Position numbers and translations under genes: made by a program
From: Chryseobacterium gleum
GTDB taxonomy: Bacteria > Bacteroidota > Bacteroidia > Flavobacteriales_F > PHOS-HE28
Length of the DNA stretch: 47,466 nt
Assembly: GCA_945872795.1 (NCBI GenBank)
Contig: CAMCAZ010000023.1
Location: forward strand, 1-47,466
Direction of reading: 5' to 3'
Shown: positions 293 through 12,963 of the stretch, one piece after another
Layout of the letters: every line of letters begins with the position of its first letter
How positions within the stretch are numbered: the stretch's first letter is position 1
Notes under the pieces: model-generated
What the model saw: the letters and a program-made list of their open reading frames with translations, nothing else
Told to the model about the DNA's origin: nothing
Database searches by the model: none

Positions 293-366
293 GATCCCGT
301 AGCTCAGATGGATAGAGCATCTGCCTTCTAAGCAGACGGTCGTTGGTTCGAGTCCAACCGGGGTCA
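293..366 (+). tRNA. tRNA-Arg (anticodon TCT)
   Basis: A complete 74-base cloverleaf is visible. The acceptor stem pairs 293-299 with 359-365. The D-arm follows the usual AGCTCAG pattern. The anticodon stem is 320-324 with 332-336, around the loop CTTCTAA with anticodon TCT at 327-329. The T stem GTTGG/CCAAC encloses TTCGAGT, and the discriminator is A366. CCA is not encoded. It reads AGA codons. Confidence 0.95.
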
Positions 367-650
367 CTTCACTACATGCTCCTTCCCACGGAGCAGACAG
401 CTGTGCTGCTCGTAGGCGATGGCCGTCATGCGCATCGATGCACGACCACCTGAATGGTCTTCTGTTACGGCAGGTAAGGCCCCTGCTGAGGGTTGTCATC
501 ACCGGAAAGATGAAGCTCCTCGTTGATCCATCGGGACTTACCCCGGGCTGGTCGAAATGTTGATCTCTTAGAGGCGATTGGCTCGTTATCAAGCCTGTTC
601 GTTTGCCAACTTCACGGCCCACACGATCGGACCGATAGACCCCAAGAATC
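367..650. other. Noncoding spacer between tRNA-Arg and the beta-helix gene
   Basis: No credible gene is seen here. A short hairpin, TGCTCC at 377-382 with GGAGCA at 390-395, lies just after the tRNA but lacks a T run. No clear TAnnTTTG box precedes the gene at 651. Confidence 0.5.
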
Positions 651-3600
651 ATGTTCACCACCACGAGAAAGTTCACCTTCCTGATCGCGGCGGTTCTGCT
701 TTCGACCTCCCTGAAGGCGGTCACCTATTACGTGTCACCCAACGGCAGCGACACGAACGCAGGTACATCATCCACCACGGCCTGGCGCAGCATCGCCCGG
801 GTCCTGCAAAGCATCTATTCCATCCAGGCCGGTGACCGGATCCTGTTCGAGCGGGGCGGCACCTTCCGTGGCGAGTTGATCATGCCGGGCTCTGGAACGA
901 GCGCCTCACCGATCGAGATCGGGGCATACGGCAGCGGAGCCGAGCCGATCATCAGTGGAAGTGATGTGGTGACCGGATGGACACAATACTCGGGGAGCAT
1001 CTGGAGGGCACCCATCAGCGGTACAGTGAAACATGTCTACGTGGGCGGTGTGCGCCAGACACTGGCCCGCTACCCCAACACCGGTTGGTTGCGCAATGAT
1101 CAGGGCACCGGTACCACCTTGTATGACAATGCCCTCACCCAGGGCAGCGGCTACTGGAACAATGCCACGGTGGTGATCCGTGGTTCCAACTGGTCCTATG
1201 AGGCCGCCACGGTGACCAGCTTCAGCAACGGCACTTTGAATTTTCCCAACATCTACTACAACATCTCCAACTACGACTGGGGCTACTTCCTCTGCAACAA
1301 ACTGGAGCAACTGGATGCACCCGGTGAATGGTACCATGACGCGGCGAACGGCCAATTGTACCTCTGGGCACCCAATGGCGTGAACCCGAACACGGTCACG
1401 GTGGAGGCCTCTGTGAGGGAAAAGGGCATCAACGTGTATTGGAGCCGACAGCACGTCACCATCACCAACCTGGCCTTCCAGCATCAGCGCCTGGCGGGCA
1501 TCTGGCTCGATGGAGCCTCCAATGTCCAGGTCTCAGGCTGTGTGTTCCGGGAACTGTACTTCGGGTTGAGGACCGTTGGAACCAACTGCACCTACCAGAA
1601 CAACACCTTCACGAACACCTATGCCACAGGGGCCATGCTGCTGGACAACGGGTCGCAGTTCACGAACAATACCCTGACCAATATTGCCATGGTCCCCGGT
1701 CTGGGCGAGAGCAATTGGGGCTACTTCGGTGTCCGGACCATCGGGAACGACAACATCGTTCGTCTCAACCGGGTCACCAATACAGGCTACATCGGCATTG
1801 TGGTGGATAAGAACGCCCTCGTGGAAAGGAACGTGGTGCGCAACGCCACCGCTATCCTCAATGACGGTGGAGGCATTGCATTCGATAATTGCGATGGCGC
1901 GATCATTCAGGACAACATGGTGTTCGATCTGTTGGGCGACCTGGAAAGTGTTGCTCCGGATTTCGTTCCCTACCAAAAGATCTGCCATGGCATCTACTTC
2001 GGCAACACGGTGATCAAGAATACCATCGTGCGCCGCAACACCGTCTCCAATTGCCAGGGCAGCGGCCTGCACGTGGACCATACGATGGTGTCCACCGGTA
2101 ACCAGATCCGGGACAACGTGCTCTTCAACAACAAGATCCAGTTGAGCATCTCTGACTATTCCAATTACAACGGTCCGGGAGCAACGCCGCCTTACCATGT
2201 GGCATCCTACAATGGTGTCTACACAGGCAACGTCCTCTATTCGGTGAGCTCCGATCAGTTGTGCATGAAGCAGTACAACGTGTACTCGCCGAACAATGTG
2301 GATTTCGGGACCTACACCAACAACCGCTACTTCAGCCCCTATGAGGAGTTGAGCATCTTGGTGCACAACACGAACAGCGGCGTGCAGCGCCAGTTCACGC
2401 TGGAGCGCTGGCAGGCCGAGCGCTCCGAGGAAGCCGGCACCACACGCAGCCCGCTGCGCGCGAACATGTATTCCACGGTCAGCGAGCTGAGCGCCAACCT
2501 GGTACAGAACGGCACCTTCGACTCGAACGTGACCGGATGGGGCGGCTGGCCGACGAATGCTCAGGTGACCCGCGACCTGACCTACCTCGACAACGGTGCA
2601 CTGAAGGCATTGCTCCCGAACGCCACGGTGTATCCGGAGTTCAGTCTGCGCAGCCCCGACCTGTTCAGCGTGCAGAACGCACAGTGGTATCGCATGCGTT
2701 TCAGTGTGCAGTCCACCACCCATGGTATTGTGCGCGCCGGGGTGAAGGGAAGCACCCAGATGAGCAGCGCGAACACCATTTTCGAACGTCGCATTCCCTT
2801 TGACTCCCAGCGTCGCGATGTGGAGGTCTATTTCCAGAGCGGCTTGACGGATCAATCCGTCATGCAGTTCATCAACAGCCACACGGAGCCGCAGTACTGG
2901 TTGGATAACGTTCAGGTGCATCGTGTACAGGTGCAACCGGTGAATGTCCTGCAGGACCACGTGCTGCTGTACAACGAAACGGCATCATCGCAACAGGTGT
3001 CCGTACCCTCGGGTTGCTGGTCCGATGTGAATGGTGTGGTGCAGGGTGGCACGGTCACGCTTCCAGCCTTCAGTTCGAAGGTTATCTATCGCATTGAAGG
3101 CAGTGGCTGTTCGGTTACCCCGCTGAATTCAGTGGGTGTGAAGGTGATGCTTGGCGGAGCATTGAACTGGGGCATCGGACAGATGCGAAGTGACCTGCGT
3201 ACCCAGAACCTGCTCCCCTCAGTGGAGCCCTACTCTGCCATGGGCATCTCCTTGGAGAACGGGGGGGTGACCGCGAACACCGCGCTGTTCCAAGCCACGG
3301 GTGCCCAAGCCATCGTGGATTGGGTGGTCATCGAACTGCGGAATGCGGATGCGGGCTACACCGTGGCCGGCCGCCGGGCTGCACTGGTGAAGGCCAATGG
3401 TGATGTCGTCGCGGCCGATGGCACCAGCCAGGTGCTCTTCACCACGGCAACGATCGGCAGGCATGTGGTGGTGAGGCACCGGAACCACCTTGGGGCCATG
3501 ACGGCCGCTCCGTTGACGGCCAATGCACAATTGGTGGATATGACAGCGCTCACGACCACGATGTATGGAACGAACGCCATGCAGAGCGGCACATCGTTAA

Positions 3601-3851
3601 GGGCGCTCTGGCCGGGAGACGTCAATGCCAACGGAGAGGTCCGCTACACCGGTACGGCCAACGATCGGGACCCGATCCTGGTGGCCATCGGCGCCGTCGT
3701 TCCAAGCAATTCCATCCAAGGATATCGGACAGAGGATGTGAACATGGACGGCTGGACCCTCTACTCCGGAGCAGGCAATGACCGCGACTTCGTCCTCAGC
3801 ACGATCGGTGGTTCCGTACCGACCGTCGTACGTATCGCCCAGGTGCCCTAA
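651..3851 (+). CDS. Secreted right-handed beta-helix protein with dockerin-like C-terminus
   Basis: The 1066-residue protein has a signal peptide (about 1-23, basic start then a hydrophobic core). It begins with a YYVSPNGSDxNAGT motif typical of beta-helix polysaccharide lyase-like proteins. Asn-rich beta-helix coils fill about 230-500. A probable carbohydrate-binding beta-sandwich follows at about 600-760, starting NGTFDSNVTGW. The last 230 residues form a separate module ending in two Asp/Asn-rich repeats, GDVNANG...NDRDPILVAIG and EDVNMDG...NDRDFVLSTIG, which resemble paired dockerin or EF-hand calcium loops. The likely role is binding or cleavage of polysaccharide outside the cell. I cannot assign a lyase family or a catalytic residue. 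No usual type IX sorting domain is obvious. The gene stands alone. Confidence 0.85.
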   Translation: MFTTTRKFTFLIAAVLLSTSLKAVTYYVSPNGSDTNAGTSSTTAWRSIARVLQSIYSIQAGDRILFERGGTFRGELIMPGSGTSASPIEIGAYGSGAEPIISGSDVVTGWTQYSGSIWRAPISGTVKHVYVGGVRQTLARYPNTGWLRNDQGTGTTLYDNALTQGSGYWNNATVVIRGSNWSYEAATVTSFSNGTLNFPNIYYNISNYDWGYFLCNKLEQLDAPGEWYHDAANGQLYLWAPNGVNPNTVTVEASVREKGINVYWSRQHVTITNLAFQHQRLAGIWLDGASNVQVSGCVFRELYFGLRTVGTNCTYQNNTFTNTYATGAMLLDNGSQFTNNTLTNIAMVPGLGESNWGYFGVRTIGNDNIVRLNRVTNTGYIGIVVDKNALVERNVVRNATAILNDGGGIAFDNCDGAIIQDNMVFDLLGDLESVAPDFVPYQKICHGIYFGNTVIKNTIVRRNTVSNCQGSGLHVDHTMVSTGNQIRDNVLFNNKIQLSISDYSNYNGPGATPPYHVASYNGVYTGNVLYSVSSDQLCMKQYNVYSPNNVDFGTYTNNRYFSPYEELSILVHNTNSGVQRQFTLERWQAERSEEAGTTRSPLRANMYSTVSELSANLVQNGTFDSNVTGWGGWPTNAQVTRDLTYLDNGALKALLPNATVYPEFSLRSPDLFSVQNAQWYRMRFSVQSTTHGIVRAGVKGSTQMSSANTIFERRIPFDSQRRDVEVYFQSGLTDQSVMQFINSHTEPQYWLDNVQVHRVQVQPVNVLQDHVLLYNETASSQQVSVPSGCWSDVNGVVQGGTVTLPAFSSKVIYRIEGSGCSVTPLNSVGVKVMLGGALNWGIGQMRSDLRTQNLLPSVEPYSAMGISLENGGVTANTALFQATGAQAIVDWVVIELRNADAGYTVAGRRAALVKANGDVVAADGTSQVLFTTATIGRHVVVRHRNHLGAMTAAPLTANAQLVDMTALTTTMYGTNAMQSGTSLRALWPGDVNANGEVRYTGTANDRDPILVAIGAVVPSNSIQGYRTEDVNMDGWTLYSGAGNDRDFVLSTIGGSVPTVVRIAQVP

Positions 3852-4026: not shown

Positions 4027-4782
4027 TCAGATCTTTTCGAGATCAGTGGACGACATCCACCCGATGCTGCCGTTGGCGAGCTTCACCTCGGACCAATCGT
4101 CCACGGATTGGAGTACGGTGACCTTGGTTCCCTTGTGAACCACGAAGAGCGCTGTGCCGGAGGCGCGTGGTTCGCTGCGTACGTCAACTTTCGGTGCCAT
4201 GATGATCGCCTCACTGTCATCGGTGACGGCCATGTGCCGACTGACGGCCATGGGCAGGGCGATGAGGAAGTAGACCGCAGCGATCGCGGCAAGAACGCGA
4301 AGGATCCGGACCGGCCACTGCTGCGATATGAACAAGCTCAACGCCAAGAGGACGAAAAGGGCGGTGAAGGACCACAACGATCTCCGGGCCCAGTGGTCGG
4401 GATCACGGCCACCGGCCATTCGTTCCCATTCGGAAAGCAAGGTGGATCCGGGGAGCTCGTTCACCCGGTCCTTCAGATGCGTGCGCGCCAAAGCCAGGTT
4501 TGCGCGGATATCCTCATCACCGGGAGCCAGTTTCAGCGCGCGCTCATAGAACAGGATGGCCTTCGAATGATCCCCAAGCTTGTAGTGGCAGTTGCCGATG
4601 TTGAAGAGCAGGCCGGCGGATGTCCCCCTCTGGGCGGTTGCGGTGTACAGGTCCAATGCAGCGGTATGGTCGCCGGCCAGATAGGCCGCTTCGGCACGCG
4701 CGATAAGGCTGTCCGGAGCGACATCCGAAGCAGCTAGCGCGGTAGCTGAGAGCAGTGTAAAGAGGAGGAGCAGGGCCTTCAT
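4027..4782 (-). CDS. batE: BatE: TPR and SH3-domain membrane protein of the aerotolerance operon
   Basis: The 251-residue protein has a signal sequence (about 1-18), then TPR units at about 25-105 including the pattern LLFNIGNCHYKLGDHSKAI. Two closely spaced membrane segments lie at about 135-180. A C-terminal bacterial SH3-like domain (about 190-251) contains VDVRSEPRASGTALFVVHKG. It is the last gene of the Bat operon. Its ATG overlaps the batD stop as ATGA, so translation is coupled. BatE proteins are thought to help scaffold the MoxR/VWA envelope complex, but the molecular role is not settled. I see no clear terminator after it. Confidence 0.88.
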   Translation of the reverse strand: MKALLLLFTLLSATALAASDVAPDSLIARAEAAYLAGDHTAALDLYTATAQRGTSAGLLFNIGNCHYKLGDHSKAILFYERALKLAPGDEDIRANLALARTHLKDRVNELPGSTLLSEWERMAGGRDPDHWARRSLWSFTALFVLLALSLFISQQWPVRILRVLAAIAAVYFLIALPMAVSRHMAVTDDSEAIIMAPKVDVRSEPRASGTALFVVHKGTKVTVLQSVDDWSEVKLANGSIGWMSSTDLEKI

Positions 4783-6530
4783 GCGCGGAGGGTTCGTTCG
4801 ATGCGCCCGATGATGGACACGGCGTCGTTGAACAGGTTCTCGTCGGGCTTGTCCGCCAGGGGGGCGAAACGTGCCATGTCGCAGGTGCCCAGGATCCGGT
4901 CCACCTCAAGAGCGATCTCGCTTGCATCGGTAGCTCCTGTCAGTTTGGCCCGGATGTGTTCAGTCGTGAGCTCGGCAGGTCCCAGCCCCAGTGAATCGCC
5001 GAGATAGCCTCGGAGGGCCTTGCTCACCGCATCGTGGAAGGGGCCGGAGGTATTGGCCTTCAGCGCCTCTTCGGCTTCCCGCAGTGTCCGTCGTGCCACC
5101 CGATCGGCCTGTTTGCGACGAAGGGCACTGACATCGGCCCTTTCCGCTGCGGTGCGTCTCCTCCAGACGGCGAGACCGAGGAACGCCATGACGGGGACCG
5201 CCATGCCTGCCCAATAGAGGGCACTTCCGAAGAGCAGGTCCCCATCCTGTCGCAACCCAAGGTCGCCGGTGCGGATGTATCGGATGTCCTCGCCAAGCAC
5301 CTGCACGTCCGTTTGGCTGGGCCGTTCCGGTCGCGTGGCGGACCCGGTCTCACCGGGCGTCACATCGATCGTGAAGGGTCCGGCCGTCAATTCCTGGTAC
5401 TGTGCCGTGCGGGTGTTGAAGTAGGTGACGGAGCTGGCCGGGATCTCGAAACGCCCTTCATGCCGCGGGATGATCAGGTACTGGAACTCGCGGCTGCCGC
5501 TCATCCCGGACCCGTTCACCACGATCTTGTCCACGGTCTTGGGGTCGTAGCGCTCCAGGTCGGGGGGGAGTTCCAGTACGGGCGCTTCCAACAGTTTCAG
5601 GTTGCTGCGGCCGGTGATCCGCAGGTCCACTTCGAACGCTTCATTGGTGCGCACTTCCGTACGGTCGATCGATGCCGCGATCTCCAGTTCACCAACGGCT
5701 CCGTTGAATCCGGGAGGCATCGGCTTGGGCAGCGCGTTCACCACCAGCTCGATGGTGTTGCTGCGAACGGGAACGTTGGTGCCACGGTTGAAGAACGATC
5801 GGTTCACCAGGCAGGTCAGCTCCAACGGCTCGATCCGAAGCGTTCCGCTCTTCTGGGGGAAAAGCACCTGCTTTTTCAGCACCGCCACATTGTAGGGTAT
5901 GCCATTGATCATCTGCGGCCGTTCCTCCCAACCTTTGTCCCCCAGGTCGATCTCTTCGGACCAGAAGCCTGTCATCTTGGGCAGTTCATACTTGGACAGC
6001 TCCAGGTTGGAGTAGCGCGAGTAGAGCGTGTAGGTGGCCACCACCTGCTCACCCACGTACACCTTGTTCCTGCTCACGGTGATGGTGGCGAAAAGGTTGG
6101 CATCGCCGCGCTGGCCTTGGGTGGCATAAGGGTCGCTCGCCTTGGCCGTGCCCTTGGTGACCTCGATGGTGATCGGGTCCGTCGATACGACGCCACCGCC
6201 CACCTTCACCTGTGCCGCTCCGATGGTGTAGCTGCCCGGCTGTGTGGCTGTCAGGGTCCACGTGCGGCTCAGGGAACTGGTCATCCGGCCGTTGACATAA
6301 CTGAAGCTGCTGTTCTCGAAAGGCCCTGCAACGATGACGAGCCCTCCCAGATCGGGTGCGGCGAAGCGCTCGCGGGTGTTGGAGAGCTGGATGGTCAGGC
6401 GCAGTTGTTCGCCTGCCGCGATACTGCTGCGGTCCACCGTCGCTGTGAACGCGATCTCCTGGGCTGCCGTGCTGTTCAGCAGGCCGAGAAGGAGGAGGAG
6501 AAGGAATGTTGTGCGCATGGTCCGGAGCAT
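4779..6530 (-). CDS. batD: BatD: oxygen-tolerance family membrane protein
   Basis: The product is 583 residues from ATG 6530. A second ATG at 6518 (MRTTFLLLL) gives the same signal peptide and is equally possible. Longer in-frame starts run into batC and are rejected. The mature part is a large periplasmic region of repeated beta-sandwich modules, seen in phrases such as SIAAGEQLRLTIQLSN and KVYVGEQVVATYTLYSR. One membrane helix lies near 440-460, and a helical cytoplasmic tail follows. This matches the BatD family. It starts one base after the batC stop and overlaps batE by four bases. The exact function is unknown; it is a presumed partner of the VWA proteins BatA and BatB. Confidence 0.88.
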   Translation of the reverse strand: MLRTMRTTFLLLLLLGLLNSTAAQEIAFTATVDRSSIAAGEQLRLTIQLSNTRERFAAPDLGGLVIVAGPFENSSFSYVNGRMTSSLSRTWTLTATQPGSYTIGAAQVKVGGGVVSTDPITIEVTKGTAKASDPYATQGQRGDANLFATITVSRNKVYVGEQVVATYTLYSRYSNLELSKYELPKMTGFWSEEIDLGDKGWEERPQMINGIPYNVAVLKKQVLFPQKSGTLRIEPLELTCLVNRSFFNRGTNVPVRSNTIELVVNALPKPMPPGFNGAVGELEIAASIDRTEVRTNEAFEVDLRITGRSNLKLLEAPVLELPPDLERYDPKTVDKIVVNGSGMSGSREFQYLIIPRHEGRFEIPASSVTYFNTRTAQYQELTAGPFTIDVTPGETGSATRPERPSQTDVQVLGEDIRYIRTGDLGLRQDGDLLFGSALYWAGMAVPVMAFLGLAVWRRRTAAERADVSALRRKQADRVARRTLREAEEALKANTSGPFHDAVSKALRGYLGDSLGLGPAELTTEHIRAKLTGATDASEIALEVDRILGTCDMARFAPLADKPDENLFNDAVSIIGRIERTLRA

Positions 6531-6531
6531 T

Positions 6532-7053
6532 TCACCAATCCTTGTCGACAGGAACCTTGGGCGCCGGCTGCTGGCGCTGTCGCATCCTGCTCTGCACCTG
6601 CTGTTCCTGCCTGTCCAGTGCATCGAGTATCCGCTTGGCATCCTGTGGCGCGATCTCTCCGGGGCGCGGTTGGCCGGGATCGCCGGGCTTTCTTTCCTTG
6701 GACTGTTCAGACTGCTGCTGTTCGGCCTGTTGTTCCTGTTTCTGTTGCTCCTGTCCGCCCTTGCTCTGTTCCTCCTTGGACCGGCCATCCTCCGGCTTGT
6801 CCTGCTCTTGTTGCTGCTGTTGTTGTTGCTGTTGTTCCTTCAGCAGCTCAGTGGCCAGTTTGCGCAAACGGGCATCCTGCGGGTGTTGCTGCAAGCCCTG
6901 GTCCAAGGTGCGCAAGGCCGACATCTTGTCCTCTTTCACATACTGTTTCGCAGCCAGGTTGAAGTAGTCCATGGGGCTCTTCACCGCAGTGGTATCCTGC
7001 GCCACCATGGTCATCGCGCAGAACATGACCAGGAGGAGGCTGAGCGTTCTCAT
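6532..7053 (-). CDS. batC: BatC: short glutamine-rich secreted protein of the Bat operon
   Basis: The 173-residue protein has a signal peptide (about 1-18) and a short helical segment resembling one or two TPR units (about 28-70). A low-complexity tract dominated by Gln, Glu and Lys follows (about 73-120), with ten consecutive Gln, and a Pro/Arg-rich tail. BatC in other Bacteroidota is a TPR protein. Here that role looks divided between this gene and the TPR lipoprotein upstream, so the name rests mainly on position. Its ATG overlaps the upstream stop by four bases and batD starts one base after its stop. The CAG/CAA tract could vary in length. Confidence 0.65.
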   Translation of the reverse strand: MRTLSLLLVMFCAMTMVAQDTTAVKSPMDYFNLAAKQYVKEDKMSALRTLDQGLQQHPQDARLRKLATELLKEQQQQQQQQQEQDKPEDGRSKEEQSKGGQEQQKQEQQAEQQQSEQSKERKPGDPGQPRPGEIAPQDAKRILDALDRQEQQVQSRMRQRQQPAPKVPVDKDW

Positions 7054-7844
7054 GAGGGTCGGGCGGCCTTGGTGATCATGTCCAACTTATCCATGTAGTC
7101 CTTCCGCTGCTGCAGGGTGGGGTCCTGCTGGACGCCTTGCCGCATCACATCCAACGCTTCCTGGAAAAGATACTTCTCCACCAGTTCATCGGCCCGTGCC
7201 ATGATGAGCTTGGCCTTCTCGCCCAGGTCGCGGTCCTTGTTCGGGTCCTTGCTTCCTTCGTTGGTGGCGGGTTTCGGGCGGGCCGCGATACGTTCCATCA
7301 CCAGCGCGAGGTTATGCCGTGCATCCTCCTCGGTGGGGGTCAGACGCAGCATGTTCCGATAGGCGTCCTCGCTCTGGAGCAGCGCGGAATCCGTGAGCTG
7401 GGAAAGTTCCCGTTCCAGGGTGAGCAATGAATCACGGAGCACCACCAGCCGCACCTGTTCGTTGATGTCGCCTTCGAGCGTGATGGACCGCGACTGTTCG
7501 CCGGCCTGTCGTGCTGTACTGTCCGCCAGCATGGCCCGGTCGCTCCACACATGGCCCAGGTTGTAAAGTGCTTTCGCGCGATCGGCCACACTATCTGCCA
7601 AGTTGGAGGCCAGCGTATAGCGCTCCACGGCTTCGGCCCATTGCCCGGTCTCCTGCAACACCACGCCGGCATTGAAGCTCGTGCGGAGGTCCTCCGGTGA
7701 CCCCATGTAGGCCTCGAGCGCCTTCTGCAGTTCACCGGCCTGGTGGTAGGCATTGCCGATCCGTAGCGCCTCGTCCACGGAGCGCTCGTGTGCATCGCCA
7801 CAGGCGGCAAGCATCAGGACGGCTATGTAGGCGATGCGGTTCAT
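7050..7844 (-). CDS. TPR lipoprotein of the Bat operon (BatC-like)
   Basis: The 264-residue protein has a lipoprotein signal ending MLAAC with the modified cysteine at 15. TPR-like helices follow (about 22-100 and 160-185), for example AYHQAGELQKALEAYMG and ALYNLGHVWSDRA. A helical region of about 100-150 looks coiled. The C-terminal segment (about 210-264) has a further helical pair. It overlaps batB and batC by four bases each, so it is co-translated with them. It probably supplies the TPR scaffold usually ascribed to BatC. It is expected to sit in the periplasm, anchored by lipid. Confidence 0.75.
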   Translation of the reverse strand: MNRIAYIAVLMLAACGDAHERSVDEALRIGNAYHQAGELQKALEAYMGSPEDLRTSFNAGVVLQETGQWAEAVERYTLASNLADSVADRAKALYNLGHVWSDRAMLADSTARQAGEQSRSITLEGDINEQVRLVVLRDSLLTLERELSQLTDSALLQSEDAYRNMLRLTPTEEDARHNLALVMERIAARPKPATNEGSKDPNKDRDLGEKAKLIMARADELVEKYLFQEALDVMRQGVQQDPTLQQRKDYMDKLDMITKAARPS

Positions 7845-8986
7845 GGTACGATGGTCCGCGGCATCACGGCACGGGAGCGGTCCTCCGCAATGGTCATTCC
7901 AAGGATGATCAGGAAGATCCCCACCGCCAGGGGTATCTGGAACCGGTCCTCATGGGCGGTGAAGCGGTAGCTGCCGGTCTCGGTGGTATCCATGGTGCGC
8001 AGCTCATCCACGAGTTCCACGATACCGCTCGAACTGTTGGATGATCGGAGATAAAGACCGTTGCCGGCCACAGCGATCCGCTGCAGCATGGCCTCGTTGA
8101 GCACGCTCACCACCGTGCGCCCTTCGCGGTCCTTCCGGAAGCCTTGCACCTGTCCGTTCTTGCGGATGGGGATGGGACCGCCCTGCACGGTTCCCATGCC
8201 GATGGTGTGCACCACGATCCCCGCTTCCGCCGCAGCCCGTGCCGCGCCTTCCGCATCGTCCTCGTGATTCTCACCATCGGTGATGACGATGATGGCCTTG
8301 CTGCCGGCGCTCTCCGCGGAGAAGCTCTCCATGGCCAGTTCGATCGCCGCACCGATGGCTGTGCCCTGAGTACCCACGGTGCGTGTATCCACCGATGCCG
8401 TGAACATGCGCGCTGCGGAACGGTCCGTGGTGATGGGCAGTTGCACGAAGGCATCACCCGCAAAGACCACGATGCCTAGTCGGTCGCCCTTCAGTCGGTC
8501 GATCAGCTGGGAGAGGGAGCGACGGGCCACCTCCATCCGGCTGGGGCGCAGGTCCTCGCAGTCCATGCTGTTGCTCACATCCACGGCCACCACCACGTCG
8601 ATCCCCTCGGCCTTGACCTCCTCCATGCGCGCACCGAACTGGGGACCTGCCAGCGCGATGATCACCGCGCCGATGCCGTGACGGAGCAACAGGAAACGCA
8701 GCGTGAGACGGCCACCGGAAATGCCGGGCACCATGCGCTCGCGGGTGCCCAGCGCGGCGAACCGGTTCAGTGCGCGGTTTCGCCAACCCACATGGAGCAG
8801 GTGGATCAGGCACATCACCGGCCCGGCGAGCAACGCCCACAGCACCCATTGCCGTTCAAAGCGGAACCCCGGAACATCGTTCAACAGGATCCAACCGAGG
8901 GGGATCATCAACGCCCAGGTGAGCAGTTCCAGCAGCAGGACCGTTGTGGTCATGACGCCGATGCGGTATGTGCCCTTGCGCTTCAT
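7841..8986 (-). CDS. batB: BatB: membrane-anchored von Willebrand A-domain protein
   Basis: The 381-residue protein has membrane helices at about 10-35, 47-65 and 97-113, then a VWA domain (about 128-325) and a last helix at about 350-368. The metal-ion site is intact: DVSNS at 136-140, with ITDGENHEDD further on. This layout of N-terminal helices, VWA domain and C-terminal helix is that of BatA/BatB. The start ATG forms an ATGA overlap with the batA stop; an internal ATG at codon 12 is an alternative. It probably acts with BatA as a metal-dependent protein-binding subunit at the inner membrane. Confidence 0.9.
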   Translation of the reverse strand: MKRKGTYRIGVMTTTVLLLELLTWALMIPLGWILLNDVPGFRFERQWVLWALLAGPVMCLIHLLHVGWRNRALNRFAALGTRERMVPGISGGRLTLRFLLLRHGIGAVIIALAGPQFGARMEEVKAEGIDVVVAVDVSNSMDCEDLRPSRMEVARRSLSQLIDRLKGDRLGIVVFAGDAFVQLPITTDRSAARMFTASVDTRTVGTQGTAIGAAIELAMESFSAESAGSKAIIVITDGENHEDDAEGAARAAAEAGIVVHTIGMGTVQGGPIPIRKNGQVQGFRKDREGRTVVSVLNEAMLQRIAVAGNGLYLRSSNSSSGIVELVDELRTMDTTETGSYRFTAHEDRFQIPLAVGIFLIILGMTIAEDRSRAVMPRTIVP

Positions 8987-10065
8987 GCCAAAGTCCGGAG
9001 CAGTGTACGGTCGAGCAGGAAGCCGGCCATCAACAGGCCGACGCCCAGGAGGAGGAAAGGTCCGTACTCATCGTTGCGCTGGCTGTGTTCGGTCACCTTG
9101 ATGCGCGTACGTTCCATGCGGTCGATCTCGGCATAGATGTCGCGCAGTTTGCCTTCATCCACGGCGCGGAAATACTGTCCGCCGGTCAGCTCGGCCACCT
9201 GCGTCAGCGTGGCTTCATCGATCTCCACATCCACCAGGTCGTAGCGGTACTGCCCGTTGGCGTACTGGCTTACGGGGGCGAGGGCCTTTCCCCGTGAACC
9301 CACGCCGATGGTATAGACCCGTACCCCCAGTTGTTCGGCGATCTGTGCGGCATCCAGGGGTTGCACCATGCCCGCATTGCTCACGCCGTCGGTGAGCAGG
9401 ATCACCACCTTGCTCTTGGCTTCACTGTCCCGCAGGCGGTTCAGGGCCGTGGCGAGCCCCATTCCCACCGCTGTACCACCTGTGATCAGTCCGCTGCGGG
9501 CGCCGGAGAACAACTCCTTGAGGACGCGATGGTCGGTGGTCAGGGGACACTGGGTGAACGCTTCCCCCTCATACACCACCAGCCCGATGCGGTCGTTCGG
9601 ACGACCATCGATGAACTCCTGCGCAACCTTCTTCGAAGCCGCCAGGCGGTCCGGGCGCAGGTCCTTGGCCAGCATGCTGGCAGACACGTCCAGCGCGATC
9701 ATGATGTCGATGCCTTCGCGCTGCACGTCCTGCCAGTTGTCGCGGCTTTGCGGGCGGGACAGGGCCATGATCAGCAAAGCAGATCCGCCCAGTGCCAGCG
9801 CCTGTGGAAGTGGACGCAGGTAGGAGAGCAGGTCGAAGGGGGCGTTGGCCAGTACGCTGTAGGTGGGCAGGGGGATCTGGGCATTGGTCCGTGGACCGCG
9901 CCACAGCATGAACAAGACCAGCAGAGGCGTGATCAACAGCAGCCAGAGCAGGGTAGGGTTGGCCGGCTCATAACGCCGGAACAGGGTGTACAGCGCAAAG
10001 CCGGCGCAACCCAGGGCCAACGCGGACCAGGCCAGGGTGATGAGCCGGTCGCGGTCACGCCACAT
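8983..10065 (-). CDS. batA: BatA: membrane-anchored von Willebrand A-domain protein
   Basis: The product is 360 residues from ATG 10065, which overlaps the end of the upstream gene by 11 bases. A longer ORF to 10116 would cut further into that gene and adds no recognisable sequence. Membrane helices lie at about 8-28, 39-56 and 88-103. The VWA domain has an intact metal site, DVSAS at 126-130 and LLTDGVSNAG later. A C-terminal helix is at about 335-355. It is paired with batB, and the two are diverged paralogues. The family is linked to aerotolerance in Bacteroides and to MoxR-type chaperoning in general. Confidence 0.9.
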   Translation of the reverse strand: MWRDRDRLITLAWSALALGCAGFALYTLFRRYEPANPTLLWLLLITPLLVLFMLWRGPRTNAQIPLPTYSVLANAPFDLLSYLRPLPQALALGGSALLIMALSRPQSRDNWQDVQREGIDIMIALDVSASMLAKDLRPDRLAASKKVAQEFIDGRPNDRIGLVVYEGEAFTQCPLTTDHRVLKELFSGARSGLITGGTAVGMGLATALNRLRDSEAKSKVVILLTDGVSNAGMVQPLDAAQIAEQLGVRVYTIGVGSRGKALAPVSQYANGQYRYDLVDVEIDEATLTQVAELTGGQYFRAVDEGKLRDIYAEIDRMERTRIKVTEHSQRNDEYGPFLLLGVGLLMAGFLLDRTLLRTLA

Positions 10066-10984
10066 GCTGCTGCGTGTTTGCGTTGGACAGGGTGGCCTCC
10101 ACGAACCGGATGGCACCGGCCATCATCTGTTCGTTCTCCGCCGGGGTGGGCTTGGCCTTGGCGAACTTCACCAGGTCGGCAAGCCGCAACATGTTCTCCA
10201 GATGCGTCCGCTGTTCATTGTTCATGGGGCTTACACCAAGCTCCTGGAGCAGTTCATCGGTGCTGCTCTCCATCGCCGGCACCTGATAGCGTTCCTCGAT
10301 GTAGCTGCGCAGCAGATCGGTGATGCGGCTGTGGTAGGCCTTGTGCTCGCCCTGTTGCCAAAGTCGGCTGGCGTCCAGTTCACGCAGGGAACGCAAGGTC
10401 CGCAGATGCACGGGCTCCATCGGCGCTTCCACGACGGGCGCGGGCACGGTCTTCCGTTTGCGGGTCAGATAGAAGAGTCCGGCGATGATCAGCACCAACG
10501 CGCCGAGGCCGGCCAGCAGTTCCACCAGGTGCGCCCTGATCCAGTAGCCGATGGAGAAGGGGACTTCATAGATCGTCTTCGCGGGTCGTTGGACCTTGGG
10601 GTCATCCAGGGCCACGTTGCGCACCTCGATCAGCAAGGGGCTGGTTTCCTGAGGGCTTCCGGAGACCACGAACGTGAAGGGAGGGATCGCCCAGTGTCCC
10701 GTGTCGAAACTGGTCAGGAAGATGCGCTGGGTCAGGTGCAGTCCGGCCGCATCCTGCACACTGTCCACCGGGCCTTTGCGGACGACCTCCAGTTGGTTGA
10801 TCAAGGTGTCGCCGAACACCGGCCAGTTGACCATGCCCGCCGGCGCATCCGTTGGCAGATCGATGGAAAGCAGCAGCTCGACCTGTTCACCGATGCGCAG
10901 TACAGCGGTGTCCAGCGACGCTGAGGGCACTTGGGCCTGAGCGAGGATGGGCCACAGGAGCAGGAGGATGCCGATCGATCTCAT
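10055..10984 (-). CDS. BatD-like membrane protein between DUF58 and BatA
   Basis: The product is 309 residues from ATG 10984, which overlaps the DUF58 stop as ATGA. A longer ORF upstream overlaps DUF58 and is rejected. It has a signal peptide (about 1-18), a periplasmic beta-sandwich (about 20-150), a membrane helix (about 168-190) and a helical cytoplasmic tail (about 205-305). This is a small version of the BatD architecture, including the positively charged stretch after the helix. Such a gene is usual at this place in Bacteroidota Bat operons (DUF4381-like). Its function is unknown. Confidence 0.75.
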   Translation of the reverse strand: MRSIGILLLLWPILAQAQVPSASLDTAVLRIGEQVELLLSIDLPTDAPAGMVNWPVFGDTLINQLEVVRKGPVDSVQDAAGLHLTQRIFLTSFDTGHWAIPPFTFVVSGSPQETSPLLIEVRNVALDDPKVQRPAKTIYEVPFSIGYWIRAHLVELLAGLGALVLIIAGLFYLTRKRKTVPAPVVEAPMEPVHLRTLRSLRELDASRLWQQGEHKAYHSRITDLLRSYIEERYQVPAMESSTDELLQELGVSPMNNEQRTHLENMLRLADLVKFAKAKPTPAENEQMMAGAIRFVEATLSNANTQQHVA

Positions 10985-11868
10985 CGTCCGCCTTCCCGCT
11001 GTTTGAAGAGGTTCATCAGGGGCTTCACATAGCCGCCGCTGGTGGAGATGGTGGCGTGGTCCACGCCGGAGCGACGGAGCACTTCTCGTGAGCGGTTGTG
11101 CCGTTTCAAGGCGGCGGCGCGGTACGCGTTCCGGATGGCGCGGCTGGCCGTGTTCACCCACCGTACGGAGCCCGTCTCGGGATCGGTGAACTGCACCAGC
11201 CCCATGTTCGGCAGTTCGCCTTCGCGGGGGTCCACGGTGCGCAGCACGATGAGATCATGCTTGCGTTTGGCGATCTTCAGGGCATCGTCATAGCCCTCAT
11301 CCATCAGGTCACTGATGAGGAAGGCGATACTGCGTTTCTTGATCACGTTGTTCAGGTAGCGCAGGGCCTCGGTGATGTCCGTGGCGCGATGGGCGGCCCT
11401 GAACTCGAGCAGTTCGCGGATGAGCCGGAGGATATGCGTGCGCCCCTTCTTGGGCGGGATGAACTTCTCCACGCGGTCGCTGAAGAGGATCAGGCCCACC
11501 TTATCGTTGTTCTTGATGGCGCTGAACGCGATGGTGGCGCAGGCCTCCGTGATCAGCTCGCGCTTCAACTGGGTGGCGGTGCCGAAATCCTCCGATGCGC
11601 TGACATCCGCCACCAGCATCACGGTAAGCTCCCGTTCCTCCTCGAACACCTTAACGAAGGGATGCCCGAAGCGTGCCGTCACGTTCCAGTCGATCGTGCG
11701 CACCTCGTCCCCGGGCATGTATTCGCGCACCTCGCTGAAGGTCATGCCGCGCCCCTTGAACGCGCTCTGGTACTCACCGGAGAAGATGTGCTCGCTCAAG
11801 CCGCGTGTCTTCAGCTCGATGAGGTGCACCTTCTTCAGGAGCTCCTTGGTATGTTGGGCCGTGTTCAT
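10981..11868 (-). CDS. DUF58 family VWA-like protein of the Bat operon
   Basis: The 295-residue soluble protein contains the DUF58 signature RTIDWNVTARFGHPFVKVFEE at about 58-78, followed by a VWA-like strand with DVSAS at about 90-94. The order MoxR-DUF58-VWA is widely conserved. DUF58 proteins are thought to be substrates or adaptors of the MoxR ATPase. It follows the moxR gene after 66 bases with no gene between, and overlaps the next gene by four bases. Confidence 0.9.
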   Translation of the reverse strand: MNTAQHTKELLKKVHLIELKTRGLSEHIFSGEYQSAFKGRGMTFSEVREYMPGDEVRTIDWNVTARFGHPFVKVFEEERELTVMLVADVSASEDFGTATQLKRELITEACATIAFSAIKNNDKVGLILFSDRVEKFIPPKKGRTHILRLIRELLEFRAAHRATDITEALRYLNNVIKKRSIAFLISDLMDEGYDDALKIAKRKHDLIVLRTVDPREGELPNMGLVQFTDPETGSVRWVNTASRAIRNAYRAAALKRHNRSREVLRRSGVDHATISTSGGYVKPLMNLFKQREGGR

Positions 11869-11934
11869 GGATGCGAAGCGCAGGAGCAGGAGCGGTGGCC
11901 AGAAAGAGTTACTGCACCTGCCCTTGCACCTGTT

Positions 11935-12963
11935 TCAAGGGACCTCCACCGTGTTCAGCACGCGTTCGATGATGTCGTTGACGGTGATGCCTTCCGCCTC
12001 GGCCTCGTAGGTGAGCCCGATCCGGTGCCGCAGAACATCCGGGCACACGGCACGCACATCCTCGGGGATCACATAACCGCGGTGTTTGATGAAGGCCAGT
12101 GCTTTCGCAGCGAGCGCCATGTTGATGCTGGCACGCGGGCTTCCACCGAACCCGATCAGCGAGGTGAGGTCCGATAACTTGTACTGGTCCGGCTTCCGTG
12201 TGGCGTACACGATGTCCACGATGTACTGCTCGATCTTCTCGTCCATGTATACCTCGCGCACCAGCGCCCGCGCGGCGATGATCTCTTCGGCCTGCACCAC
12301 CTTGGAAGGGGTGAGCATGCCACCGGGTCGCACGTTCTGGCGGATGATCAATTTCTCCTCCTCCTTCAAAGGATAGTCCAGCACCACTTTCAGCATGAAG
12401 CGGTCCGTCTGGGCCTCGGGCAGCGGGTAGGTGCCTTCCTGTTCGATGGGGTTCATCGTGGCCAGTACAAGGAAGGGCTGTGGCAGCGGATAGGTCTGCG
12501 CACCGAGGGTGACCTGCCGTTCCTGCATGGCTTCCAGCAGGGCGCTTTGCACCTTGGCCGGCGCCCGGTTGATCTCATCGGCCAGGACGAAGTTGCTGAA
12601 GATCGGTCCCTTCTTCACGCTGAACTCCTCGCTTCGGGGGCTGTAGATCATGGTGCCGATCAGGTCGGCGGGCAGCAGGTCCGGGGTGAACTGGATCCGG
12701 CTGAAGTCCACGTTCACGGCCTGGGCGAGCGCCTTGATCGCCATGGTCTTCGCCAGCCCGGGCACGCCCTCCAGCAGGATGTGGCCATCGGCGAGCAGGG
12801 CCACCAGCAGTTTCTGGACCATGTCCTTCTGCCCCACGATCACTTTGCCCATTTCGCGGTCGATCAGGTCGACGAAGCTGCTGGCCTGTTGGATGCGCTC
12901 GTTCAGCGCGCGGATGCTGTCCGATGTGACCGTGGTGGTCATTGGTTCCGAGGGAGTCTCCAT
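11935..12963 (-). CDS. MoxR family AAA+ ATPase
   Basis: The 342-residue protein has a Walker A motif GVPGLAKT (66-73), a Walker B motif FVLADE (126-131) followed by INRAPAKVQ, and a C-terminal AAA lid. This is the standard MoxR form. It is the first gene of the nine-gene Bat operon. It probably acts as an ATP-driven chaperone for the DUF58 and VWA proteins. ATG 12963 is used; a second ATG seven codons in is possible. A promoter-like pair of boxes lies at 13005-13037. Confidence 0.93.
   Translation of the reverse strand: METPSEPMTTTVTSDSIRALNERIQQASSFVDLIDREMGKVIVGQKDMVQKLLVALLADGHILLEGVPGLAKTMAIKALAQAVNVDFSRIQFTPDLLPADLIGTMIYSPRSEEFSVKKGPIFSNFVLADEINRAPAKVQSALLEAMQERQVTLGAQTYPLPQPFLVLATMNPIEQEGTYPLPEAQTDRFMLKVVLDYPLKEEEKLIIRQNVRPGGMLTPSKVVQAEEIIAARALVREVYMDEKIEQYIVDIVYATRKPDQYKLSDLTSLIGFGGSPRASINMALAAKALAFIKHRGYVIPEDVRAVCPDVLRHRIGLTYEAEAEGITVNDIIERVLNTVEVP

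Follow-up and report, generated by a model that had tools for sequence, protein, structure and literature searches.

The window analyzed here is a 47,466-nucleotide stretch of Chryseobacterium gleum DNA (positions 1 to 47,466 of the forward strand of contig CAMCAZ010000023.1, assembly GCA_945872795.1). Near its start lies a gene for a secreted β-helix protein, in which an N-terminal signal peptide can be read from the sequence by eye. A tRNA-Arg gene (tct; window 293-367, + strand) is found immediately upstream. A Bat-type operon occupies window 4027-12963 on the − strand and encodes a TPR/SH3 protein, BatD, a TPR protein, two VWA proteins, a DUF58 protein, and a MoxR-type AAA ATPase. The last part of the β-helix protein, from approximately residue 825 (nucleotide 3123) to the stop codon, forms the module with which this report is concerned; we refer to the gene as the carrier. 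Its parts, in window coordinates, are as follows.

651..3851, + strand: carrier gene, 1066 aa, secreted β-helix protein with the module at its C terminus (ORF; Pfam PF13229, E = 4.2e-16)
1425..1916, + strand: right-handed β-helix part of the carrier, residues 259-422 (Pfam)
3123..3848, + strand: C-terminal module, 242 aa, consisting of a β-sandwich, two dockerin-like repeats, and a conserved end
3123..3602, + strand: N-terminal β-sandwich, module residues 1-160, containing the near-invariant motifs VDW and HRNH
3477..3488, + strand: HRNH motif, module residues 119-122
3618..3686, + strand: dockerin-like repeat 1, loop D166-D181 with a four-residue insert, helix to residue 188
3735..3803, + strand: dockerin-like repeat 2, loop D205-D220, helix to residue 227
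3828..3848, + strand: last strand and terminal QVP (QLP or QVP in most members)

The last 250 residues of the carrier gave nothing significant in Pfam, and searches of NCBIfam and of the PDB sequences were also empty for this end. An earlier, sequence-only reading of the window had described a separate C-terminal module with two copies of a loop-helix repeat, and both features were recovered. The two copies follow the pattern D-V-N-x-[ND]-G...NDRD..L..IG..VP and, when aligned to each other over 30 residues, give a score of 75, which was reached by 0 of 2000 shuffles (best score, 41). That the module is a separate unit follows from its distribution within a single genome, where 12 complete proteins, unrelated to one another in their N-terminal parts, all terminate in it. 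The genome in question (3.32 Mb in 102 contigs) gave 16 module matches, of which 12 are complete, one is cut, one has an in-frame stop, and two are very weak; each complete copy, that of the window gene included, ends an open frame of 457-1398 aa, and the carriers are different secreted proteins. Judged by eye, they include metalloproteases, a glucose-dehydrogenase-like protein with PKD domains, a trypsin-like protein, a carrier with MopE-like repeats, and a β-propeller with a cytochrome part. Two of the matches appear to be damaged or misassembled: that at C16:15013-15450 has its start cut and reads past the usual end, and that at C67:7946-8335 contains the in-frame stop. In one carrier from the same genome (L017, contig C45), six near-identical repeats containing GGNGRGD precede the module, and similar motifs are seen on module proteins at L243, L245, and L258.

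Far from being confined to one protein or one genome, the module was present in all 17 same-genus relatives searched, with 5-48 matches each, in agreement with the statement in the sequence-only reading that similar termini occur on several secreted proteins of related bacteria. Among more distant relatives it was found in 1 of 12 (15 matches) and was absent from the other 11; with the own genome counted, 19 of 30 genomes were positive. A phylum sample gave 27 module-positive genomes out of 198, own genome included, with a narrow and a broad profile alike. A scan of named genomes confirmed at least 572 module places, and 79 loci were kept; among the matches listed, these belong mostly to Bacteroidales, other Bacteroidota, and Ignavibacteria, and also to Chlorobiota, Kapabacteria, and Calditrichaceae. 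One genome labeled Thermoplasmatota (G268) has three module genes on a contig with an archaeal-looking pilin-like ORF (locus L121, judged by eye), and one of these genes has, after its module, a transmembrane-like C-terminal stretch where the usual end would be; the presence of these genes under an archaeal label may reflect transfer or mis-binning. Within the window genus, module genes cluster and alternate with genes for signal-peptide proteins (L242-L244 on G205:C52, L245-L246 on G202:C54, L253, and L258), and all three of the NNIQV-type FGE-sulfatase-domain proteins found adjoin a module gene. No clear receptor was seen among the neighbors of module genes in these genus clusters.

The position of the module was counted in 145 complete copies, after removal of own-locus duplicates. 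The profile match is followed by 12 residues or fewer in 116 copies, by 13-40 in 26, and by more than 40 in 3, so that 142 of the 145 have at most 40 residues beyond it. When the ends of 140 full modules were compared, 106 finished in [VILM]P plus 0-2 residues, including 68 in Q[VILM]P. In some copies, from Bacteroidales at L126, L129, L135, L136, and L139 and further at L227 and L228, there is a short C-terminal extension that again ends in (S/C)QVP; the terminal motif appears to stay last even in extended modules. Exceptions to the C-terminal rule are L094, L124, and L110, where at least 200 residues of another domain follow the module.

Conservation was read from a set of 128 rows (A4), comprising the window copy and 127 of 134 non-redundant relatives; those left out, because of C-terminal extensions or odd labels, were L082, two of L121, and one each of L126, L129, L132, and L136. 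Two further sets are A5, a subset of A4 with 59 of its 128 rows, and A2, which omits L036 and L056. VDW, HRNH, both occurrences of NDRD, and the final P are invariant across the 12 own-genome copies; all four residues of HRNH are kept in 18 of 18 genus rows, and H122 is present in 128 of 128 rows. The repeats are tandem loop-helix units of EF-hand type with a D-x-N-x-D-G loop, and in modules of the window type both calcium loops carry a four-residue insert (YTGx) ahead of NDRD. Loop 2 keeps D-N-D...D, and its metal positions are conserved in the genus (D205 in 18, N207 in 16, D209 in 17, and D220 in 18 of 18 rows). Loop 1 is degenerate in the same rows: its first position (D166) is D in nine and N in nine, and N168 is found in 7 of 18.

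The structure of the whole module, C terminus included, was predicted with AlphaFold2 from 128 sequences, with a pLDDT of 96.9 and a pTM of 0.93. In a VIA search with this model type II X-dockerins filled the eight best rows (Z = 8.4-9.8; 143-148 aligned residues; rmsd, 3.4-3.9), and the ninth row had a Z of 4.9. Foldseek against the PDB gave no match for the module model at an E of 0.001 or better; below this threshold, seven of the eight best rows were X-dockerin chains. Fold searches with a viral library also gave nothing at 0.001 or better. The family profile, searched against PDB sequences, found dockerins, the first entries having E values of 1.7e-4 to 1e-3 and the X-dockerin of CipA (2b59_B) one of 2.8e-4, and Pfam Dockerin_1 was matched by 14 of the 128 members at an E of 0.01. 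Together with the predicted structure, these results uphold the resemblance to dockerin or EF-hand loops that had been noticed by eye. Predicted alone, the sandwich had a pLDDT of 95.8; searched alone, it gave a best Z of 4.9, to transthyretin-like folds, with X-dockerin chains at 3.5-3.8. On the model, the isolated sandwich looks like a common transthyretin/Ig-like sandwich, no closer to X-modules than to such folds. From the VIA, profile, Dockerin_1, and sandwich-alone results we conclude that the dockerin half is clear and that the predicted arrangement as a whole is X-dockerin-like, the sandwich itself being non-specific. The window copy is not filed as a dockerin, since a match to Dockerin_1 and a cognate cohesin were both looked for and neither was found.

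The sequence-only reading had remarked that no cohesin was in view, and this extends to the genus: PF00963 was matched in 0 of 18 genomes of the window genus at an E of 0.01. A cohesin profile derived from the wider group found none in 20 stretches around module clusters from eight genus members, and none in approximately 0.95 Mb of the own genome; a classical cohesin was therefore not seen in the window genus with either PF00963 or the home-made profile. The wider module genomes are different. Searches for PF00963 and SprA covered 50 of the 53 first listed (L097, L098, and L120 were dropped), and PF00963 was found in 39 of the 50 at an E of 0.001, among them G229 and G268, both without SprA; G268 has two cohesins. 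In the phylum sample PF00963 occurs in 68 of 198 genomes, namely, 17 of the 27 with the module and 51 of the 171 without it (Fisher P = 0.0017, with genomes counted as independent despite their relatedness), and ten of the 27 module-positive genomes are without it.

Loci were searched with the cohesin profile built from the PF00963 hits in the wider module genomes. All fetched loci together contained 87 frames with cohesins, including 17 with both a cohesin and the module. Once duplicates and cut frames were removed, the set comprised 58 distinct cohesin proteins whose 3′ end is closed. A type-A-like tail (called by the PNP motif) terminates 35 of them and the module 12; 11 have neither end, and none has both. 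In 27 of the 35 with a type-A-like tail the cohesin lies 112-140 residues from the end, and the 12 module-ended proteins carry 1-4 cohesins, with the module after them. Genes of these two kinds adjoin at eleven neighbor loci (L032, L069, L070, L072, L079, L226, L227, L228, L233, L237, and L238), of which L032 and L072 are one place. At L226 and L228, a β-helix protein of ∼1800 aa in which Pfam finds one cohesin (PF00963) and PF18962 adjoins an ∼800-aa protein with cohesins and the module. The large neighbor at L072 has a β-helix and PF18962 by Pfam, and its cohesin is seen only by the home-made profile. Cohesin operons also occur with the insert-type loops nearest the window copy (L032/L072 and L079). 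From their gene content, the wider cohesin loci appear to combine an anchor protein with an adaptor and with cargo that bears the tag.

The two halves of the module were compared within and between genomes. The genus comparison used 76 modules from 15 genomes, with own-locus duplicates and G215 dropped, and was restricted to pairs from different contigs or clusters. The dockerin half was more alike within genomes than between them (0.657 versus 0.590), a difference reached in 0 of 500 label shuffles; for the sandwich half the values were 0.487 and 0.490 (348 of 500 shuffles). In the own genome the signal in the dockerin half is small (0.610 within, 0.591 between). The wider loci gave 0.576 within and 0.389 between genomes for the dockerin half and a weaker effect, 0.538 against 0.444, for the sandwich. 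Likeness of the dockerin half within genomes would be expected if it is matched to one shared partner per species, and we take it as a sign that each species has a single receptor to which this half is fitted; gene conversion with no such reason behind it may be an alternative cause.

It had also been suggested that the module replaces a type IX secretion signal. When the 128 members were searched against Pfam and NCBIfam, none matched a type IX secretion system (T9SS) sorting model of any kind at an E of 0.01, including those of type A (PF18962 and TIGR04183, 0 of 128) and type B (PF13585 and TIGR04131, 0 of 128). As far as the models of these two libraries reach, also with regard to type C (ChiA type), the module is not a known type IX sorting domain, and there is no support for identifying it as a type IX signal. 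Among 209 module-bearing frames, a home-made type A profile likewise gave no hits, and no module frame has a type A tail. M36-type proteases ending in the module comprise the own copy and ten genus relatives, called by the profile (L180, L181, and L183-L188), by the tail (L182), or by the first part of the module (L189, which is cut at a contig end). Nine M36 homologues, including one from the own genome, are without the module, and seven of these nine have PF18962; the other two, L193 and L198, were not matched by PF18962 but have tails that by eye are similar. These are two paralogous groups, and the comparison is not one of a swap within a single orthologue. A second carrier family, of reprolysin-like proteases, was examined for such a swap and showed none: every genus orthologue with a readable end keeps the module (the own copy; G206, G207, G208, G210, G213, and G214 by matching open frames; G199 and G201 as read), G211, which is cut, and G215, which is ambiguous, being outside the count. 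The suggestion that the module replaces a type IX signal is only partly supported, by the M36 proteases, which end in the module or in a type A domain, and by the lack of a type A tail on any module-bearing frame.

SprA was found in 154 of the 198 phylum genomes, including 27 of 27 module-positive ones, and the 44 SprA-negative genomes are all without the module (Fisher P = 0.0009). This association is weak, since the SprA-negative genomes come mostly from one family (19 of the 20 for which a family is shown) and 100 of 103 genera have SprA. Among the wider module genomes SprA is present in 47 of 50, the exceptions being G229, G267 (labeled Thiotrichaceae), and G268.

We consider it probable, at roughly 60%, that the module is an X-dockerin-like surface-docking tag that was previously uncatalogued. 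The β-sandwich and the paired EF-hand-type loop-helix repeats would form one compact C-terminal plug. Tagged proteins would reach the periplasm via their signal peptides, and the dockerin half, probably with calcium in loop 2, would bind a receptor common to all tagged proteins of the species, thereby holding them at the cell surface. In the wider relatives this receptor would most likely be a cohesin on a surface protein exported by the T9SS (type A), with docking either direct or through adaptor proteins bearing 1-4 cohesins and, at their own C terminus, the same module. In the window genus the plug would have spread to many enzymes and adhesin-like proteins, and the receptor would be no recognizable cohesin. 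Genomic context supports docking well in the wider family, because cohesin genes lie in the same operons and the partners have a type A T9SS domain. In the window genus no cohesin was found, so we infer the docking partner there, as a receptor that has diverged or been replaced. For the family as a whole, binding, the part of calcium, and surface location are likewise inferred. The docking module proposed in the sequence-only reading therefore stands for the wider family and lacks a recognized cohesin in the window genus; of its two guesses, docking and a type IX signal, docking is the better one.

Several results count against a docking tag: the missing cohesin of the window genus, the lack of a Dockerin_1 match in the window copy, the uneven co-occurrence with PF00963 in the phylum sample (absent from ten module-positive genomes and present in 51 module-negative ones), the non-specific sandwich, the Foldseek search that was empty at 0.001, and the small homogenization signal in the own genome. 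A further one is SprA, which is present in all 27 phylum and in 47 of 50 wider module genomes; a direct role in the T9SS would give the same. The module might be a new kind of type IX sorting domain, recognized directly by the T9SS or one of its shuttle proteins, which would take the tagged protein across the outer membrane as for types A, B, and C. Besides SprA, several observations agree with this proposal: the C-terminal or nearly C-terminal position in 142 of 145 complete copies, the conserved last residues ([VILM]P plus 0-2 in 106 of 140), the division of M36 proteases between module (own plus 10) and type A ends (7 of 9 others), and the lack of any module frame with a type A tail. We nevertheless regard it as unlikely. 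G268, labeled Thermoplasmatota, has three module genes and two cohesins and no SprA; archaea are not known to have such an outer membrane. In the cohesin loci the type A domain sits on the partner and not on the module protein, and the SprA link is weak by genus, with 100 of 103 genera positive. No T9SS model matched, and the fold is dockerin-like, whereas type A domains are described as Ig-like sandwiches (PMC11285876). Alternatively, the module could serve adhesion or protection as an end piece, with affinity for itself or for an external ligand (polysaccharide, mineral, or matrix), its dockerin resemblance being a matter of ancestry only. The absence of cohesins from the window genus (0 of 18), the fact that roughly half the genus rows have lost metal positions of loop 1, and the many different carriers would suit this account; it is made quite improbable by the cohesins in the same operons of relatives, including those with insert-type loops (L032/L072 and L079), and by the homogenization within genomes of the dockerin half, not the sandwich.

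The nearest fold to that of the proposed docking tag, by a clear margin, is that of the type II X-dockerin dyads of cellulosomes (CipA/ScaA; PDB 2b59, 4u3s, 4wi0, and 5g5d). Both consist of a β-sandwich followed by two EF-hand-type loop-helix repeats in one C-terminal unit, and in the wider relatives the module also sits on adaptor proteins with cohesins. It differs from the dyads in its sandwich of ∼160 residues with VDW and HRNH, which, searched alone, showed no special likeness to X-modules, in the four-residue insert of both loops (window type) and the QLP/QVP end, and in its Gram-negative carriers and the lack of a recognized cohesin in the window genus. The T9SS C-terminal domains, described as types A, B, and C (PMC10202324), are likewise C-terminal on the same kinds of secreted proteins, and type A and the module are mutually exclusive here; the module has no sequence match to these domains, has roughly threefold the length of the type A model (75 positions), and contains dockerin-like repeats. 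A T9SS-anchored cohesin scaffoldin with dockerin enzymes has been proposed for "Candidatus Stygibacter" (Cloacimonadota) (PMC8542988), and such a system in the superphylum is therefore not a new idea. As described there, that system is similar in that its scaffoldin-like protein combines cohesins with a T9SS C-terminal domain and its enzymes have C-terminal dockerins; it differs in that ordinary dockerin domains are named for the enzymes. We found no published description of the module in the open-licence literature.

Genome papers have stated that cohesins and dockerins are absent from Bacteroidetes (for example, PMC5831590), and a similar statement appears in PMC3534657 for the cellulases of Melioribacter. 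Against this stated absence, a large uncatalogued dockerin-like family ends many secreted proteins of Bacteroidetes, and outside the window genus it occurs in operons with T9SS-anchored cohesin proteins. On the docking reading, the question is which receptor serves a genus with tens of tags and no recognizable cohesin. It is conceivable, though we hold it only tentatively and think it rather doubtful as a whole, that surface loading in Bacteroidota and their relatives has, beside T9SS signals, a second route in wide use. Proteins without a T9SS domain would bear an X-dockerin plug, and partners with such a domain would capture them and might even take them through the translocon as passengers. 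In the window genus the plug would have become a means of general surface display that serves as many as 48 proteins in one genome, and its receptor would have ceased to be a cohesin or would never have been one. RemZ was dropped as a precedent for passenger export, being itself a type A substrate. If the docking reading is true, it could account for the retention at the cell surface of many secreted proteins that bear no known T9SS signal, and it predicts partners for them.
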